This document shows positions 45,486 through 55,600 of a DNA stretch of 64,000 nucleotides, one piece after another. Made by a program: the position numbers and the translations under genes. The notes under the pieces were generated by a model. It searched no databases and was not told the origin of the DNA. It saw nothing but the letters and a program-made list of their open reading frames with translations. Every line of letters begins with the position of its first letter. The first letter of the stretch is position 1. Source of the DNA: Buxus sempervirens (taxonomy: Eukaryota; Streptophyta; Magnoliopsida; Buxales; Buxaceae); the NCBI GenBank assembly GCA_947561395.2, contig OX387190.1, forward strand, positions 39,110,392 to 39,174,391, given 5' to 3'.

Positions 45486-48400
45486 ATGGCAGGCACAGGC
45501 AGACAACGATTCCCCTTCCGGTTACCTTGGGCAATAAGCATAGCCCCAACACCCGTGCGTGCTCCACCTACATTCCGACCCCCAACCCAACCCCCCACCA
45601 CCACAATACCCACCTTTCAGCAACCTCCACTTCAGCCTCCAAAAAAAGCACCATCACCACCCTTGTCCGAACCAGAAACTCAGCCTCTGCCCCCATCACC
45701 ATCTCATTCAGTGCCACCATCCAAAATTGCCTCAGACCCACAGCCACCATTGGATTCTGTACCACAGCCACAAACTGACTCTCAAGAGCCTTCATCACCA
45801 TCTGAGATACCACCTCAGTCACTACAAGCCTCTCAGCCTCCTTCTCCACCCCTTGAAGCTTCTGATCAACCCCAGAAAACCCCACAGATCATAACCACCC
45901 AGCCTCCACCTCCTATCCAAGAACCAACACAATCGATTGTCCAGACATCCCCAGAACCTTCTCCATTTCAGACAGCCCCTCCACTAGAGGCAACAGCCCA
46001 AGTAGCTGATCAGCCCCCATCGCCGTCAAAGCAAGATTCTCAAATGAAACGGACAACTCAAGCGTCTCCACAAAGGCAAGCCCCTCAATTGGAGCCTATA
46101 ACTCAAGCAAGCTTTCAGCTCTCATCTCCATCAGAGGAAGATCTACAGTTGCAACCCACAACCCAAGCAGGCTTTCAACCTTCCCCATCTCACAAGGCCA
46201 CCCAGCCCCCATTGGATTTTGTACCACAGCCACAAACTGACTCTCAGCAACCTTCATCACCATCTGAGATACCACCTCAGTCACTACAAGCCTCTCAGCC
46301 TCCCTCGCCACCCCTTGAAGCTTCTGATCAGCCCCAGAAAACCCCACATATCATAACCATTCCTATCCAAGAACCCACACAATCAACTGTCCAGACATCC
46401 CCAGAACCTTCTCCATTTCAGACAGCCCCTCCACTAGAGGCAACAGCCCAAGCAGCTGATCAACCCCCATCACCGTCAAAGCAAGATTCTCAAATGAAAT
46501 GGACAACTCAAGCGTCTCCACAAAGGCAAGCCCCTAAATTGGAGCCTACAACTCAAGCAAGCTTTCAGCTCTCATCTCCATTAGAGGAAGCCCTACAGTT
46601 GCAACCCACAATCCAAGCAGGCTTTCAACCTTCACCATCTCACAAGGCCACCCAGCCCCCATTGGATTCTGTACCACAGTCACAAACTGACTCTCAGCAG
46701 CCTTCATCACCATCTGAGATACTACCTCAGTCACTACAAGCCTCTCAGCCTCCCTCGCCACCCCTTGAAGCTTCTGATCAGCCCCAGAAAACCCCACATA
46801 TCATAACCACCCAGCCTGCACCTCCTATCCAAGAACCCACACAATCAACTGTCCAAACATCCCCAGAACCTTCTCCATTTCAGACAGCCCCTCCACTAGA
46901 GGCAACAGCCCAAGCAGCTGATCAACCCCCATCGCCGTCAAAGCAAGATTCTCAAATGAAATGGACAACTCAAGCGTCTCCACAAAGGCAAGCCCCTAAA
47001 TTGGAGCCTACAACTCAAGCAAGCTTTCAGCTCTCATCTCCATCAGAGGAAGCCCTACAGTTGCAACCCACAATCCAAGCAGGCTTTCAACCTTCACCAT
47101 CTCACAAGGCCACCCAGCCCCCATTGGATTCTGTACCACAGTCACAAACTGACTCTCAGCAGCCTTCATCACCATCTGAGATACTACCTCAGTCACTACA
47201 AGCCTCTCAGCCTCCCTCGCCACCCCTTGAAGCTTCTGATCAGCCCCAGAAAACCCCACATATCATAACCACCCAGCCTGCACCTCCTATCCAAGAACCC
47301 ACACAATCAACTGTTCAGACATCCCCAAAACCTTCTCCATTTCAGACAGCCCCTCCACTAGAGGCAACAGCCCAAGCAGCTGATCAGCCCCCATCGCCGT
47401 CAAAGCAAGATTCTCAAATGAAACGGACAACTCAAGCGTCTCCACAAAGGCAAGCCCCTCAATTGGAGCCTATAACTCAAGCAAGCTTTCGGCTCTCATC
47501 TCCATCAGAGGAAGCCCTACAGTTGCAACCCACAACCCAAGCAGGCTTTCAACCTTCCCCATCTCACAAGGCCACCCAGCCCCCATTGGATTCTGTACCA
47601 CAGCCACAAACTGACTCTCAGCAGCCTTCATCACCATCTGAGATACCACCTCAGTCACTACAAGCCTCTCAGCCTCCCTCGCCACCCCTTGAAGCTTCTG
47701 ATCAACCCCAGAAAACCCCACATATCATAACCACCCAGCCTCCACCTCCTATCCAAGAACCCACACAATCAACTGTCCAGACATCACCAGAACCTTCTCC
47801 ATTTCAGACAGCCCCTCCACTAGAGGCAACAGCCCAAGCAGCTGATCAGCCCCCATCGCCGTCAAAGCAAGATTCTCAAATGAAACAGATAACTCAAGCG
47901 TCTCCACAAAGGCAAGCCCCTCAATTGGAGCCTATAACTCAAGCAAGCTTTCAGCTCTCATCTCCATTTGAGGAAGCCCTACAGTTGCAACCCACAACCC
48001 AAGCAGGCTTTCAACCTTCCCCATCTCACAAGGCCACCCAGCCCCCATCACTTACCTCTCAGCATGAACCACCATCAGATAAGACAATTCAAACACAACA
48101 GATACAGCCTCAGGTTGTGACCAAAGATGAGACAGACTTTGGCACCCAAAACCAAACAACATGGGATGCAACCTCTCAACCGGACCATATGGCAAAACAG
48201 CCTCCACAAATAGCAGACACTCTTGCCCCAGGTGCACCTACGACTGCAGCAGCTCAAGCGACACCTGTCCAGCCACAGAGTTTAGATTATTCAGTTGACA
48301 CAGTTGGTCTCGTGCATCCTCCAAACTCAGAAACAAAACCATCTGAGATACAAGAAGGGGTGCAGAAAACAGAACCAAAAGCAGAACCTATGGAAGGAGA

Positions 48401-49851: not shown

Positions 49852-50391
49852 TTAGATGTCTGTGGGGAGTAGAATAGTTGCGCCACCGCCACCGCCACAC
49901 TAACTTTGGCAACCAGAGCCGCAGTACTCGTCAGTGGTGCCACAGAAACCCCATCGGCTGCAACACAGTCCTCCTAGGCAGAAAGCGCCACCACCCTGGA
50001 TTCCGCAATTTCCTTCACCGCCAAATGGCTGTTGGTTGTAGCAGTCGAGGTTGTTCCTCTCGCTCACCCCTTGTTCCTTATAGTACCTCTGGTAGAACCT
50101 TGTCCGGTCCTTGCCTTCCTGATTTGGTCCACTACCACATGCGAGATCTCTGTTAAGGATGTTGGTGGTGACACCATAACCCTGGAGGCGACCTGCTTCC
50201 TTGTCGGCCTCTGATGGCATCCATTGTCCCGTCATGACATCATGGCAAGAAGGCCTGGGCCATCTTTGTAACATCCAAAACAAGAGCGCGGCCTTGAAGG
50301 AAATTACGGGATCAGTGGCTACCAGATCTGGATTGTTTATCAGGTCCAACCCTAGATATGCCCCGGCTTGCCCATAGTAGTGGTTGCTGCA

Positions 50392-50758
50392 AATGTAAAC
50401 AGTGGCGGAACCAGGACTCCAAATCTGGGGGGGGGGGGGGGCAAAAAAAAATTTCAATTACACTTCTCATGAAATATAGAAATTTTAATGAGTTGGGGGT
50501 AGGTAAACCAGAAATTTTAGAGAGATTCTCATGAAATATAAAAATTTCAATGAGTTGGTGGGGGTCAAACTAGAAATTTTAGATAGAGTTCTCATAAAAT
50601 ATAAAAATTTCTATAGGTTGGGGGGGCAAACCAGAAATTTTAGGGGGGGCAAAACATAGATTTTATTTAAAAAATATACAATTTTTTATTAAAAGTTAAA
50701 AATTAGGGGGGGCAATTGCCCCCCCTACAATCAACGTGGTTCCGCCACTGAATGTAAA
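50392..50758. mobile_element. hAT-type MITE with perfect 8 bp target duplication
   Basis: The element occupies 50400-50750 (351 bp). It begins CAGTGGCGGAACCA and ends TGGTTCCGCCACTG. It is flanked by AATGTAAA at 50392-50399 and 50751-50758. The 8 bp duplication and CAGTG..CACTG ends are hAT hallmarks. The interior has four GGGGG-rich blocks with AAATTT..TGAGTTG repeats and no coding frame. It sits 6 bp from the intron 2 acceptor of the chitinase relic. Confidence 0.9.
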
Positions 50759-50868
50759 AGCCAAGCTCAAGATCAGAATCTCTCTCAGGTTCTTCCTGTT
50801 GTATTTTATTGGTTTTTTCAAGGGCTCAAAATTCCCTCTTGTTGTTTTGTCATTTAGTGTTTGTCTCT

Positions 50869-51654
50869 TGTGGGAGGAATAGTCCCACATTGGAAGTTTA
50901 TGAGAACTTCTAATGGTTTATATTGAATAGTGGGAACTAAAAGGGTGCAACCCCTAAAGTGAGACACTGTTCTTTGTTGTCAGGGTTTCTTTACATTGCG
51001 CGCCGCCGCCCGTCCGGTCGGTCGTGTGGTGTGTGATGCTATCTTTTTATACTTATTTTTTGCTGACTTCCTAAAACGTTTTATTTTTCTTTTCTAAAAC
51101 GTTTTCCAATCGTTTGGGTTTTATAACCGTTGGGTTAACGTTAATTAATTTTAATTAACGTGATTTGTGTGAACGTGTGCATCTTAAGAGACACAAACGT
51201 TCGTTTCCTCTCATATATATAGAAGAGAGAGATTAGGGTTTGGTGACACACGAAAATCAGAGAATACAGCCTCTGTTGGACGCCTGTGTTTTTCTTCTCT
51301 GTTCTGAAAGTAAGAGTGACACTGCTACGCGGGTTCGATTTGTCCAGTATTTCTGTGCGGATTACTGGAGAGACATGTTTGTCGTTGAATACTGGAAGTC
51401 ATAGCGTCGAGCAACCCTTCGCACTGGAGATTCGTTCTACAGGGGACGCTTAAGGCTTTAAGCACAGAGATTTCTGAATCTCACCTCGACTGATAAGTTT
51501 ATTCCAATTCTGTTTACATTTGTTTCTGCTTAGATCTGTTGCTTCTTTCTGTCTTGACTGTTCTTCTCATATTCGTGCATCTATAATCTGATACTGTTTT
51601 AATTGTTTACCCAATTCCATTCGTATTCTGATACCTGTTTGATAATACAAAACA
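50869..51654. mobile_element. Probable solo LTR, Ty1-copia type
   Basis: TGTGGGAGGAATAGTCCCAC is a common start of plant copia LTRs. A promoter-like region (TATATATAGAAGAGAGAG at about 51214) and a leader-like stretch follow, and a CA near 51654 is a plausible end. No internal coding region is present. The end and flanking duplication are uncertain. The element lies in intron 2 of the chitinase relic and appears moderately young. Confidence 0.45.
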
Positions 51655-51920
51655 GTATTTCCCCTAAATATTACAACACTTCCTAGCTAGAAATTGAGAT
51701 GTGGAGATGTATATATAGATTAACTTACTACGTGAGTTGCATGGGACGAGTAATAGATTTTACTAGGATTACAAGGATACTGGGTACAGGGTACTAACAC
51801 AGTAGTTCCCGGACTTGTCTGCACTCTCTACCAAGCAATATGCCTGGGTAAATGGTTTTGGCCAACCCCCCTGAAATTGAATACAAGCATTAATTATATA
51901 TATTAACAAATTCAACACTT

Positions 51921-51979
51921 GAGATTCCATTAATGATCATTACCAAAAAAAAAAAAAAAAAGAGATTCCATTAATGATC
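51921..51979 (+). mobile_element. Minute LINE-tail insert with target-site duplication
   Basis: GAGATTCCATTAATGATC occurs at 51921-51938 and 51962-51979, perfect over 18 bp. The insert is ATTACC plus an A run, almost the same as the insert at 42507-42522. It lies in intron 1 of the chitinase relic. Confidence 0.75.
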
Positions 51980-52534
51980 GATATGAACACTACCCAGACT
52001 GACCTGCTGTTTCATAGGAGCTTTGAGCCAAGAAAGCAGCGACCTCCCTCTTACGCGTGTCTCTGTCACCCGTGGTACCAAAGCCCCTAAATGTCCTGGA
52101 CGCCTCTATGAAAGCCTCGTAGGTATAGAATTTGCCAGGACAATCTCCATCGCCTCTATGCTTCAAGATTTGTTCAAAAAGAGCTTTGCTGATAATGGAG
52201 GTCAAATTATCACGATCATCACAATTAAGACACTGGCTTTGGCAGCCATCGGAACAGTAAGCAGCGGTGGTACCACATGAACCCAATTGGCTGCAGCAAA
52301 GTCCTCCTGGACAGACAGCACCACCAGCTTGGGCTCCACATTGTGCTGCCAAAGCTACTCCTAGCAAGGAGCTCATGGACACCAGAACCAACACCCTAAA
52401 CGACCTCATCTTTGAAATTTGTTGCTCTGTTACGGCTTGGGATATATGGATGGAAATGATCCTTCCGAAAAGGAGTACTGGTGATAACTGACCGATAGTA
52501 CTGGTCTCCACAAAGATTGTGCCATGTACAGCGT

Positions 52535-52632
52535 CGTGATATGTTAAATGATGTTTTTGCCCACCCACGTGATATGTTAAATGATGTTTTTGCCCACCCA
52601 CGTGGGTAGGCAAAAACATCATTAAACATATC
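52535..52632. repeat. 33 bp tandem duplication leading into a hairpin
   Basis: CGTGATATGTTAAATGATG.. occurs at 52535 and again at 52568, exactly 33 bp apart. The second copy continues over CCCACGTGGG into its own inverted copy (AGGCAAAAACATCATTAAA.. to 52632), forming a stem of about 30 bp. It lies just upstream of the chitinase start and extends its frame artificially. Confidence 0.85.
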
Positions 52633-55600
52633 AAAACTTAAGAAACAATATATACCGTGAGATTGGCTGCATCTTACGTAAGCAGCCAATACAGTAAGAA
52701 GTAAGAACAAGAAAAACAAAAAATAAAAAATAAAAGAAATTACAGGTGATTTCAACATACCCACGGCACCTCCTCCTGCACGTGGCCTTAGTACCCTAGT
52801 AATGCGTGTCTAATAATGCAATTGAAATCCATACACTTTTATTTGGAGCTCTGTGGTTTCATGCCGTGTGTATTAAAATAACTACTTGAACGGTAGATAT
52901 AAATTTTTAATTACACTTGTCACAGTCCTATAAAAAGCTCCGTGTATTTAGGGTTACACAGCCTAATAATGTGGTTTTTTCTCTCGGGCTGATATCAAGG
53001 TTTATAGTTTCGGTACCGTCCATTAGCTAAAACGAAAAAATTGGTTTCGCTCATCTCGGGCGAAACAACGGAAAAAATTAAAAAGCAAAAAATAGGCAAA
53101 AATAGATTTTTTCGGATTTTGGGAAAATTTCGCCAACACGCCGTCCATTTTGCTAAAAAAATTAAAAATTTTGTATTTTTTTTTCTCTGTTTCGCCCGTT
53201 TCACTCAGTAAACCGCCTCGTTTTGTCAAAAAATTGTCGAAATTTCGCCAACGATGCAACCTAGCGATTTCCTCCAGCGAAACGCATCGCTGGGGGCAAA
53301 AAAAACGAAATTTTAACGGCACGTCACCTTGGGTGATATCACCTATATTGTTCACCTGAATTGATTATTATTATGGTTAAGACTTGCTGCCATTTAGAGC
53401 ATCTCACCATCGGAAATTGTGTCTATTTTTTTTTTTTTTGGTTATGTTCTCATCAAAAAAAAAAAAAATCTCACCATCAACATTTTTCTCATTATTGTAA
53501 ATATGCCGAAGTGAGGCCACTTGAAAAAGCATTGAGGGGTAAGATACTCCACATAGCTTCTCTAGTGTCCTTGTGCATGGACAATCATAGGATGCCATTA
53601 TGTTTACGTGAATGGGTTTTGTGCTTTTGTGCTATAGTCAGGAGAGGCTATCATGTGGGGCATTTTAAAATCTGTGTTTTTTATTTGGGCCTTACTTAAA
53701 AAACATTTTACAATAATAGAAAAAACACGAACCATGAGATATTCCAGATAGCATCATCTCACGACTAAAGCAGGGACCAATTCAAGTGAACATAGTAGAA
53801 TATTTCAATTCTTGTTTAAGGAAGCCTTCCTATATAATTATTAGGGATTGTTTTCACCCTTCTTTTGTAATACAATGCATCTATCTAGAGTAATTGTCTG
53901 AATATATAGCAAGTTTGCTTAATACACTTAACAACCAGGCTTTAAGATCAAAGTGCCCTCAATATTGTACTCAAAATTCAGCTGACTTGATGGTACTAGC
54001 TCCAATATTTTTCCAAATCATTTTACATCCTACAAACAAGTCTGCCTTCTTCTTATTGAAGCAGACTCTCCCGTGCTCTTCCTCAAATGTCATAAAAGGA
54101 AGCATCTGTATTCACAATGTATGGGCTCAATGTTACCTTGACTTTAACCATGCTTTAATTCCTTATGTGATTTTTTTTTGTCTCAGCTGGTTAATATCTT
54201 AATTTTACTAAGATTATAATTGGATTTTTCAAAGCCATTTATAATAGAAGCACTAGTTAGTTTAACGAGGGACCAAATTGACCTACCTAAATTCACTTTA
54301 AGTCCTTCAAATAAATGCAATAAGTTCAACAATGCAAATAGACACAATACATATTTCTATAACAAAGCCCTTTTCATCCATCCTGACGACGTGATTGCCA
54401 TTTCGTTCTTGAAATTTCTCTCCCCCTCCACCACTCTTCTTGCAATTGAGATCCTATGGGACCTTTATCTACAACCTTATATGAAGACTGTATCGGGATC
54501 ATGCCATGTGTATTGTGAATTGCATATCTATAAAATTTTAAGCAATTCTGTGAAAAACTGCAAATAAGATAATAGATAAAGGTCCTAAGGATGTGAACTG
54601 CTCTTCTTGTATTCTACAAACAAAAAGGTGTTGGTATCATTTGTTTCCTTATAAAAAACAATATTCGTTACTACTGTCATGATTACATAATTAAGATGTA
54701 TTTTTTTAAATATCATTCTATTTCCTCAAGCAAACGCAATCCTAAGGATTATATAATTTAAACTTTGCCTATGTAAAGAAATGGATAGGAATCATTTATA
54801 GTGAAAATATTATGGTCCTACCGTAGCAAAGTTGTGACTAGTAAATTCAAATTAAAGAATTCAATAAATTATGTGCATTAGATTTTTTTATTTATTTAAA
54901 TTTAGCATTAAAACACCAATCTTATTGAATTTTTTTTAACATTCATAAGTGGAAAGAATAAAATTTCTTCTAAAGGCCTAGATACTTTTAACTTTTCACA
55001 ATCTATAGTATATAAATATAAATGGGCCTCTTGAGAAGTGTGCCAACAACTACGCATGACTTAAAACCCTTACTGCTCGTTGTTAAGACATAATTAATAT
55101 AGGGTTAAAATAATCAAAACTTTGATATTCTTTTAAAATTTGGACAGTTAAAAAACAGATCCCTCCCTCTATGTGTAGTATTACACATGCACCCTACTAG
55201 TATTAATAATACATCATGTATTCAACATTAACAAGTGCAATAAATCCCTCTATTCACTAGAGCAACAGATAATTATTTCAAAAGAAAGAAAACTATGTGA
55301 CCTCTGGTTGTGTGATCCGGGCCTTCCAAATGGTCCAAAGACAGCTTAAGGTAAATCGTTAATTAAATTTTGGGTCCCACTAGGTTATGTAATCTCTCGG
55401 ACTTAAATGGGCCGGTGGCGGTCTCACGTTCAAGGCTCAACGGTATTTCCAATTTAATGAAATAAATAATTAATATACAAATAAATCCGCCGAAGTTGCA
55501 AAAAGCGTTGTTGAAAAAATAAAGGGAAAATTATTGAAAGGACCGTCTTTTCCCGTGTATTTACAAAAACATACTTTGAAAAGCCAAAAATGCCCTCATT

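Follow-up and report, generated by a model that had tools for sequence, protein, structure and literature searches.

The 64,000-nucleotide stretch of Buxus sempervirens DNA analysed here (assembly GCA_947561395.2, contig OX387190.1, positions 39,110,392 to 39,174,391), called the window in the following, carries on its minus strand a GH19 chitinase gene of class I type with three exons (Table 1). Exon 1 matched the Pfam models Chitin_bind_1 (E 4e-13) and GH19, positions 1-67 (5e-24), and the frame of exon 3 matched GH19 positions 112-232 (1e-45) followed by a further Chitin_bind_1 domain (8e-12). Both exons scored above the Pfam cut-off for PF00182 (GH19), and the two heveins above that for PF00187 (27.8), with bit scores of 49.7 for the N-terminal and 45.6 for the C-terminal domain. 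The initial annotation is correct in its coordinates and in the domain order hevein-GH19-hevein, with the second hevein and a Gly-rich tail encoded in the GH19 exon. The two heveins match each other at 73 % across 118 nt; with both scores above the cut-off, the pair is not due to chance, and a chance match of the window domains was ruled out by the Pfam scores and the sister loci described below. In our own mapping of the hevein numbering, the N-terminal copy has indeed lost both aromatics of the WGW motif, positions 21 and 23 being replaced and Trp21 lost, and retained Tyr30. The C-terminal copy has the tryptophan, phenylalanine and tyrosine already ascribed to it (Trp21, Phe23, Tyr30) and also Ser19.

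Table 1. Features of the window and positions of other hevein genes in the genome. Positions refer to the window unless a contig (C) is named; the signal-peptide boundary in exon 1 was judged by eye.
Feature	Position	Strand	Remarks
Stop-to-stop frame, 1214 codons	45414-49058	+	Pro/Gln-rich; five near-identical 462-bp repeats (45741-48048, 95 % match)
GH19 chitinase gene	49852-52409	-	three exons, class I type
Gly-rich tail, ILLPTDI and stop	49852-49896	-	homologous to class I tail LLLPEEI
Exon 3	49852-50386	-	GH19 remainder, C-terminal hevein, Gly-rich tail, ILLPTDI, stop; acceptor TTTGCAG
C-terminal hevein	49897-50007	-	Pfam PF00187
Premature TAG inside C-terminal hevein	49900-49902	-	CQS*C
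hAT-like MITE, 351 bp, intron 2	50400-50750		14-bp perfect TIR CAGTGGCGGAACCA, 8-bp duplication AATGTAAA
LTR-like insert, intron 2	50797-51678		target-site duplication CTTCC on both sides
Exon 2 remnant (GH19)	51729-51870	-	acceptor TTTCAG, donor GTAAGT; +1, +7 and -5 indels
Exon 1	52004-52409	-	signal peptide, N-terminal hevein, linker, GH19 start; donor GTCAGT
N-terminal hevein	52230-52340	-	Pfam PF00187; 8 of 8 Cys kept, QLGSC
33-bp repeats	52535-52633		two identical direct repeats, then inverted copy (94 %)
L013	C12:41854500-41858500		three heveins in one open frame
L016	C12:41917000-41921000		class I type, two tandem N-terminal heveins before GH19
L017	C12:41941000-41945000		class I type, four tandem N-terminal heveins before GH19
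L040	approx. C12:21702881-21705390	-	candidate hevein receptor kinase
L041	approx. C8:2921056-2923569	+	candidate hevein receptor kinase

The gene is decayed, as the initial annotation had stated, and judged by its sequence it yields no full protein. The exon 2 indels were identified by alignment with the paralogues, and joining exons 1 and 2 at the annotated splice sites leads to a stop after 160 residues. In exon 3 an in-frame TAG directly precedes the last cysteine of the C-terminal hevein, where the relatives read CQSQC, CQSRC, CQSKC or CQCQC. Thus the decay lies chiefly in exon 2. The splice signals are still in place.

Intron 2 is enlarged by two inserts, both from many-copy families. 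A query ending at 51650 gave near-full-length genomic copies of the LTR-like insert, which matched positions 50797-51649 at 82-96 %; several copies were paired about 5.5 kb apart, as expected for the two LTRs of one element. The hAT-like MITE has many copies in the genome with 86-97 % identity. The clean target-site duplications at both inserts indicate that the window locus is coherent. Two other features were observed in the surroundings. The repeat-containing frame of 1214 codons had no Pfam match at E values up to 1, and the 33-bp repeats just upstream of the broken gene could form a hairpin.

A profile search of the genome (676 Mb) gave at least 66 matches to PF00182 and at least 35 to PF00187; the best candidates were scored, and the locus counts are lower bounds. 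A PF00187 hevein directly behind the PF00182 exon 3 on the same strand was present at at least seven loci: the window gene, L009 and L010 on the contig of the window (C12), and L018, L019, L021 and L023 on contig C11. At an eighth locus, L022 on C11, the hevein matched PF00187 and the preceding GH19 end was seen by DNA match only. The PF00187 cut-off was passed by seven of the eight loci, the hevein of L021 remaining below it with 26.4 bits. Besides the window gene, at least seven loci on two contigs have a hevein behind GH19, and at least five of them are intact: the frames of L009, L018, L019, L021 and L023 are complete and uninterrupted over 323-340 aa, and their splice sites are canonical. 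L010 is frameshifted in exons 2 and 3 and L022 is a fragment. L020 consists of exons 1 and 2 with a hevein-less start and no exon 3 seen, and a lone exon 1 fragment beside L026 was assigned to the C-terminal-hevein type by similarity only. The initial annotation had looked to an intact relative of the same order as support for a real architecture. No intact hevein-GH19-hevein gene was present among the loci found in this genome, where both heveins occur together in the window copy only, but the five intact GH19-hevein paralogues establish the C-terminal hevein as a real, inherited architecture. The class I order, an N-terminal hevein followed by GH19, is present in the window gene and not in its intact relatives; nor do these genes correspond to class II, defined as GH19 without a chitin-binding module, since they possess a C-terminal hevein. 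They have three exons, divided at the same places as those of the class I paralogues in this genome.

Gly-rich sequence surrounds the C-terminal hevein, which follows the GH19 end (CYNQ.PF and variants) and precedes a class I-like tail. The class I C-terminal tail LLLPEEI has a role in vacuolar sorting. For the tail and 33 bases downstream, none of 1000 shuffles reached the score against the class I tail in five of six copies, the window copy included; the sixth, L018, has a tail without recognisable similarity to it, its score being reached by 196 of 1000 shuffles. The tails line up in the protein alignment and not in the nucleotide alignment.

The tree of GH19 exons 1 and 3 comprised 16 sequences with the hevein-less L024 and L025 as outgroup. 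Eight class I-type genes served for comparison, seven with a clear N-terminal hevein and L015 with a damaged hevein below the cut-off. Trees and selection tests did not use L019, a near-identical tandem copy of L018; L020, L022 and L014 were excluded from the GH19 tree because exons or a usable exon 3 end were missing, and class IV-like GH19 genes on C6 and a C22 gene at 22.16 Mb were in no tree. The window gene, L009, L010, L018, L021 and L023 formed one clade (SH-aLRT 99.7, bootstrap 100). In all six aligned exon 1 copies other than that of the window (L009, L010, L018, L021, L023 and the L026 fragment) the N-terminal hevein is absent at a common junction, GCAGCACA (or GCAGCAGA) / AAGCC, the position of which has an alignment uncertainty of one or two bases. 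L019 and L020 were outside the junction alignment and start likewise without a hevein. The C-terminal-hevein genes that could be placed are one clade, with one INTERMEDIATE at the N-hevein junction in the copies other than that of the window. The signal peptide and the linker flanking the N-terminal hevein of the window resemble the clade's own type when the alignment is inspected by eye, which suggests that the window gene preserves the state with both domains. With the others lacking the N-terminal hevein at one junction and the window gene alone having both, it appears as an intermediate-like relic.

Within the clade, the window gene grouped with L009 and L010 (95.4/97 for exons 1 and 3, 94.3/91 for the full coding alignment). 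This nested position needs two losses of the N-terminal hevein at one spot or a regain, whereas the shared deletion junction argues for a branching of the window gene below the rest of the clade. Four alignments were tested for the basal against the nested position. The basal topology was marginally rejected on GH19 exons 1 and 3 (AU p 0.044); the single-exon alignments (p 0.141 and 0.062) and the full coding alignment (p 0.136) did not reject it. Possible histories are one loss, the tree being slightly off, a double loss at the same site, and a regain.

The hevein tree, rooted on the PR4-type hevein L030, placed the N-terminal hevein of the window as sister to the C-terminal heveins (93.9/91), suggesting an internal copy. 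An origin from the gene's own N-terminal hevein was the best topology by 5.3 log units; the hevein domain is short, and four rival topologies were not rejected (AU p 0.13-0.27). Acquisition of the C-terminal hevein from another class I gene by ectopic exchange, in place of a copy of its own N-terminal domain, is an unlikely origin. In its favour, a class I cluster is located on the same contig at 41.82-41.94 Mb, adjoined by L009 and L010, and a nesting of the C-terminal hevein with the heveins of L011, L012, L027 and L028 was not rejected (AU p 0.27), but an origin from other class I genes was 5.7 log units worse and the best rooted tree pairs the C-terminal hevein with the N-terminal hevein of the window gene itself. 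We consider it quite improbable that the window gene lost its N-terminal hevein together with the clade and regained one later by gene conversion. In a comparison with 22 other heveins, the N-terminal hevein of the window reached no more than 78.4 % identity, so there is no recent donor among these, and the clade-type look of its signal peptide and linker also speaks against a regain that would otherwise reconcile the placement beside L009 and L010 with the junction common to the others.

A one-off rearrangement or an assembly artefact is hardly credible, even if the window gene is the only copy found with both heveins and a pseudogene. The initial annotation would have been overturned by the lack of any relative with a C-terminal hevein and by a rearrangement unique to this assembly; instead, C-terminal heveins occur at seven further loci on two contigs, and both intron inserts are bordered by clean target-site duplications. 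For the C-terminal order this explanation was refuted by the intact paralogues.

In GH19 chitinases Glu67 is described as the general acid and Glu89 as the general base, with Ser120 and Gln118 also named (PMC2976769). Residues were assigned by HMMER alignment to the rice enzyme 2DKV and the class I paralogues. Glu67 is retained in all four distinct intact models of the clade and in the window gene (SYETA). Glu89, a position not considered in the initial annotation, is replaced in all four, by Gln in L009, L018 and L021 and by Cys in L023; it is Glu in four of six class I models. The position is Ser in exon 2 of the window gene (one frame, LVESADKSGNYC) and in exon 2 of L010. In all four models the residue directly preceding position 89 is acidic (Glu or Asp) and could stand in for Glu89, and all four lack a 4-residue stretch before the site. 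Gln118 is retained in three of four, and Ser120 is changed to Val in L023. The Arg of the DRIGFY-like motif, which we take to be Arg215, is retained in all four. The residues presumed to be Tyr123 and Asn124 are lost in three models, those of the C11 genes, and the presumed His66 in four. L009 aligned end to end with solved GH19 domains. Codon tests were run without the frameshifted L010, L026 and L014 and without L015, which lacks a complete model. The GH19 domain of the clade is under purifying selection (omega 0.54, a value of 1 rejected at p 6e-5, four genes); for the class I genes omega is 0.68 (p 0.04, six genes). These p values were obtained with a coarsely gridded transition/transversion ratio.

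The C-terminal-hevein proteins might still be active chitinases that use the Glu or Asp before position 89 as base, the moved hevein altering only how the enzyme sits on chitin. Purifying selection on GH19 would fit such enzymes, as would the retention of Glu67, the Arg, the preceding acidic residue and, in three models, Gln118. We nevertheless judge continued activity to be unlikely, in view of the replacement of Glu89 and the loss of the preceding stretch and the presumed His66 throughout, the loss of the presumed Tyr123 and Asn124 in three models, and Ser120 to Val in L023. With Glu89 replaced in the clade, the end state appears more lectin-like than an enzyme with a moved anchor.

Hevein binding has been assigned to Ser19, Trp21, an aromatic residue at position 23 and Tyr30 (PMC6908686). 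In the C-terminal heveins all eight cysteines, Trp21 and Phe23 are invariant in the seven copies; the chance of all eight cysteines being invariant is 3e-4, given 16 invariant of 37 columns. Purifying selection was not detected on the 37 codons of this domain (omega 1.05, p 0.92). Ser19 is present in five of the seven copies and replaced by Asn in L022 and L023. Position 30 is Tyr in the window gene, Phe in L009 and Asp or Glu in the other five (L010 and the four C11 copies). Binding may be weak in the copies with an acidic position 30 or Asn19.

On balance, the window gene is likely a broken member of a GH19 clade whose hevein moved from the front to the back and whose intact members are lectin-like. 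A class I gene (hevein-GH19) would have acquired another hevein at its rear end, most probably duplicated from the domain at its front and bordered by Gly-rich sequence. This would have made the front hevein redundant, so that its binding residues could be lost in the lineage of the window gene and the domain deleted in the others, giving the order of states hevein-GH19, hevein-GH19-hevein, GH19-hevein. The initial suggestion that binding moved to the C-terminal domain would hold as a history of the clade, the other members being without the N-terminal hevein. The intact proteins are probably secreted, vacuolar, chitin-binding defence lectins, in which the GH19 fold would bind or support binding and cleave chitin poorly or not at all. 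A wider interpretation is nearly balanced, with a slight lean to doubt: the start, the intermediate (the window relic) and the end state of a change in domain order may be present in one genome, the end state being GH19 lectins of a new class, catalytically dead, whose hevein is placed between the GH19 fold and a C-terminal sorting tail. The relic offers a testable path for a change of domain order by duplication and loss.

Further hevein genes with unusual domain compositions were observed. L016 and L017 have open frames of 368 and 434 aa, and in both Glu89 is changed to Gln and Ser120 to Lys. A lost catalytic base accompanies extra or moved heveins in two lineages, the clade and the multi-hevein genes L016 and L017, suggesting that the change from chitinase to lectin may have occurred more than once. 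In L013 a fourth, interrupted hevein is located upstream of the three in frame, and no GH19 pattern was found within the 4 kb examined. Its repeats carry an apparent signal-peptide remnant, LLGAALA, as if fragments of exon 1 had been duplicated in tandem. The candidate hevein receptor kinases L040 and L041 have a signal peptide, two heveins (PF00187, E 4.5e-25 and 1.8e-24) and a Gly linker, followed by a hydrophobic membrane-spanning-like stretch and, in the proper order, Ser/Thr kinase exons (HRDLKASNILL, DFG, APEY). Pfam kinase models matched three exon peptides of L040; the kinase exons of L041 were recognised by eye only. The frame can be kept open with one or more canonical splice pairs in five of five introns tried for L040 and in four of five for L041. 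Both genes look like a fusion of exon 1 of a class I chitinase with a kinase, probably that of a cysteine-rich receptor-like kinase: some 4 kb downstream of the L041 gene there is an open frame with PF01657 (DUF26), followed by a kinase exon. No description of such a hevein receptor kinase was found in the parts of the literature consulted; it may be more surprising than the C-terminal hevein.

The plant GH19 classes I, II and IV are distinguished partly by the presence or absence of an N-terminal chitin-binding domain (PMC8547705). A clade with a C-terminal chitin-binding domain stands outside this scheme. For 22,461 GH19 sequence entries, the same study places CBM18 in front of CHIT domains or between them; the position behind a GH19 domain is found in a few proteins with two such domains (CHIT-CBM18-CHIT). 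In the text consulted, it mentions no protein with one CHIT domain and CBM18 as its last domain. A table of the commonest architectures has Hevein(1-2)/GH19, the full list being in the supplement (PMC5485960). Hevea brasiliensis is known to have chitinase-like GH19 proteins to which a hevein domain is linked (cited in PMC12355970). In the open-licence literature no description of a plant GH19 protein with a C-terminal hevein was found, though figures and supplements of gene-family papers may show one. Prokaryote and viral collections contained no confirmed relative of the exon 3 protein, as expected for a plant protein.

The rice class I chitinase (PDB 2DKV) shares the hevein and GH19 domains with the clade, and class I chitinases in general share the signal peptide, the homologous C-terminal tail and, in the paralogues of this genome, the three-exon split. 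In contrast to 2DKV, the clade has its hevein behind GH19, its general base is replaced, and four residues ahead of the site are deleted. The nettle agglutinin precursor and BjCHI1 of Brassica juncea are class I relatives in which at least two heveins stand at the N-terminus. In these proteins and in L016 and L017 the number of heveins in a GH19 protein varies, as in the window gene, but unlike in the clade all heveins are N-terminal. The chitinase-like proteins of Hevea brasiliensis, the subject of Martinez-Caballero 2014, would resemble the clade in their linked hevein and differ from it in the end at which it is attached, the hevein there being N-terminal.
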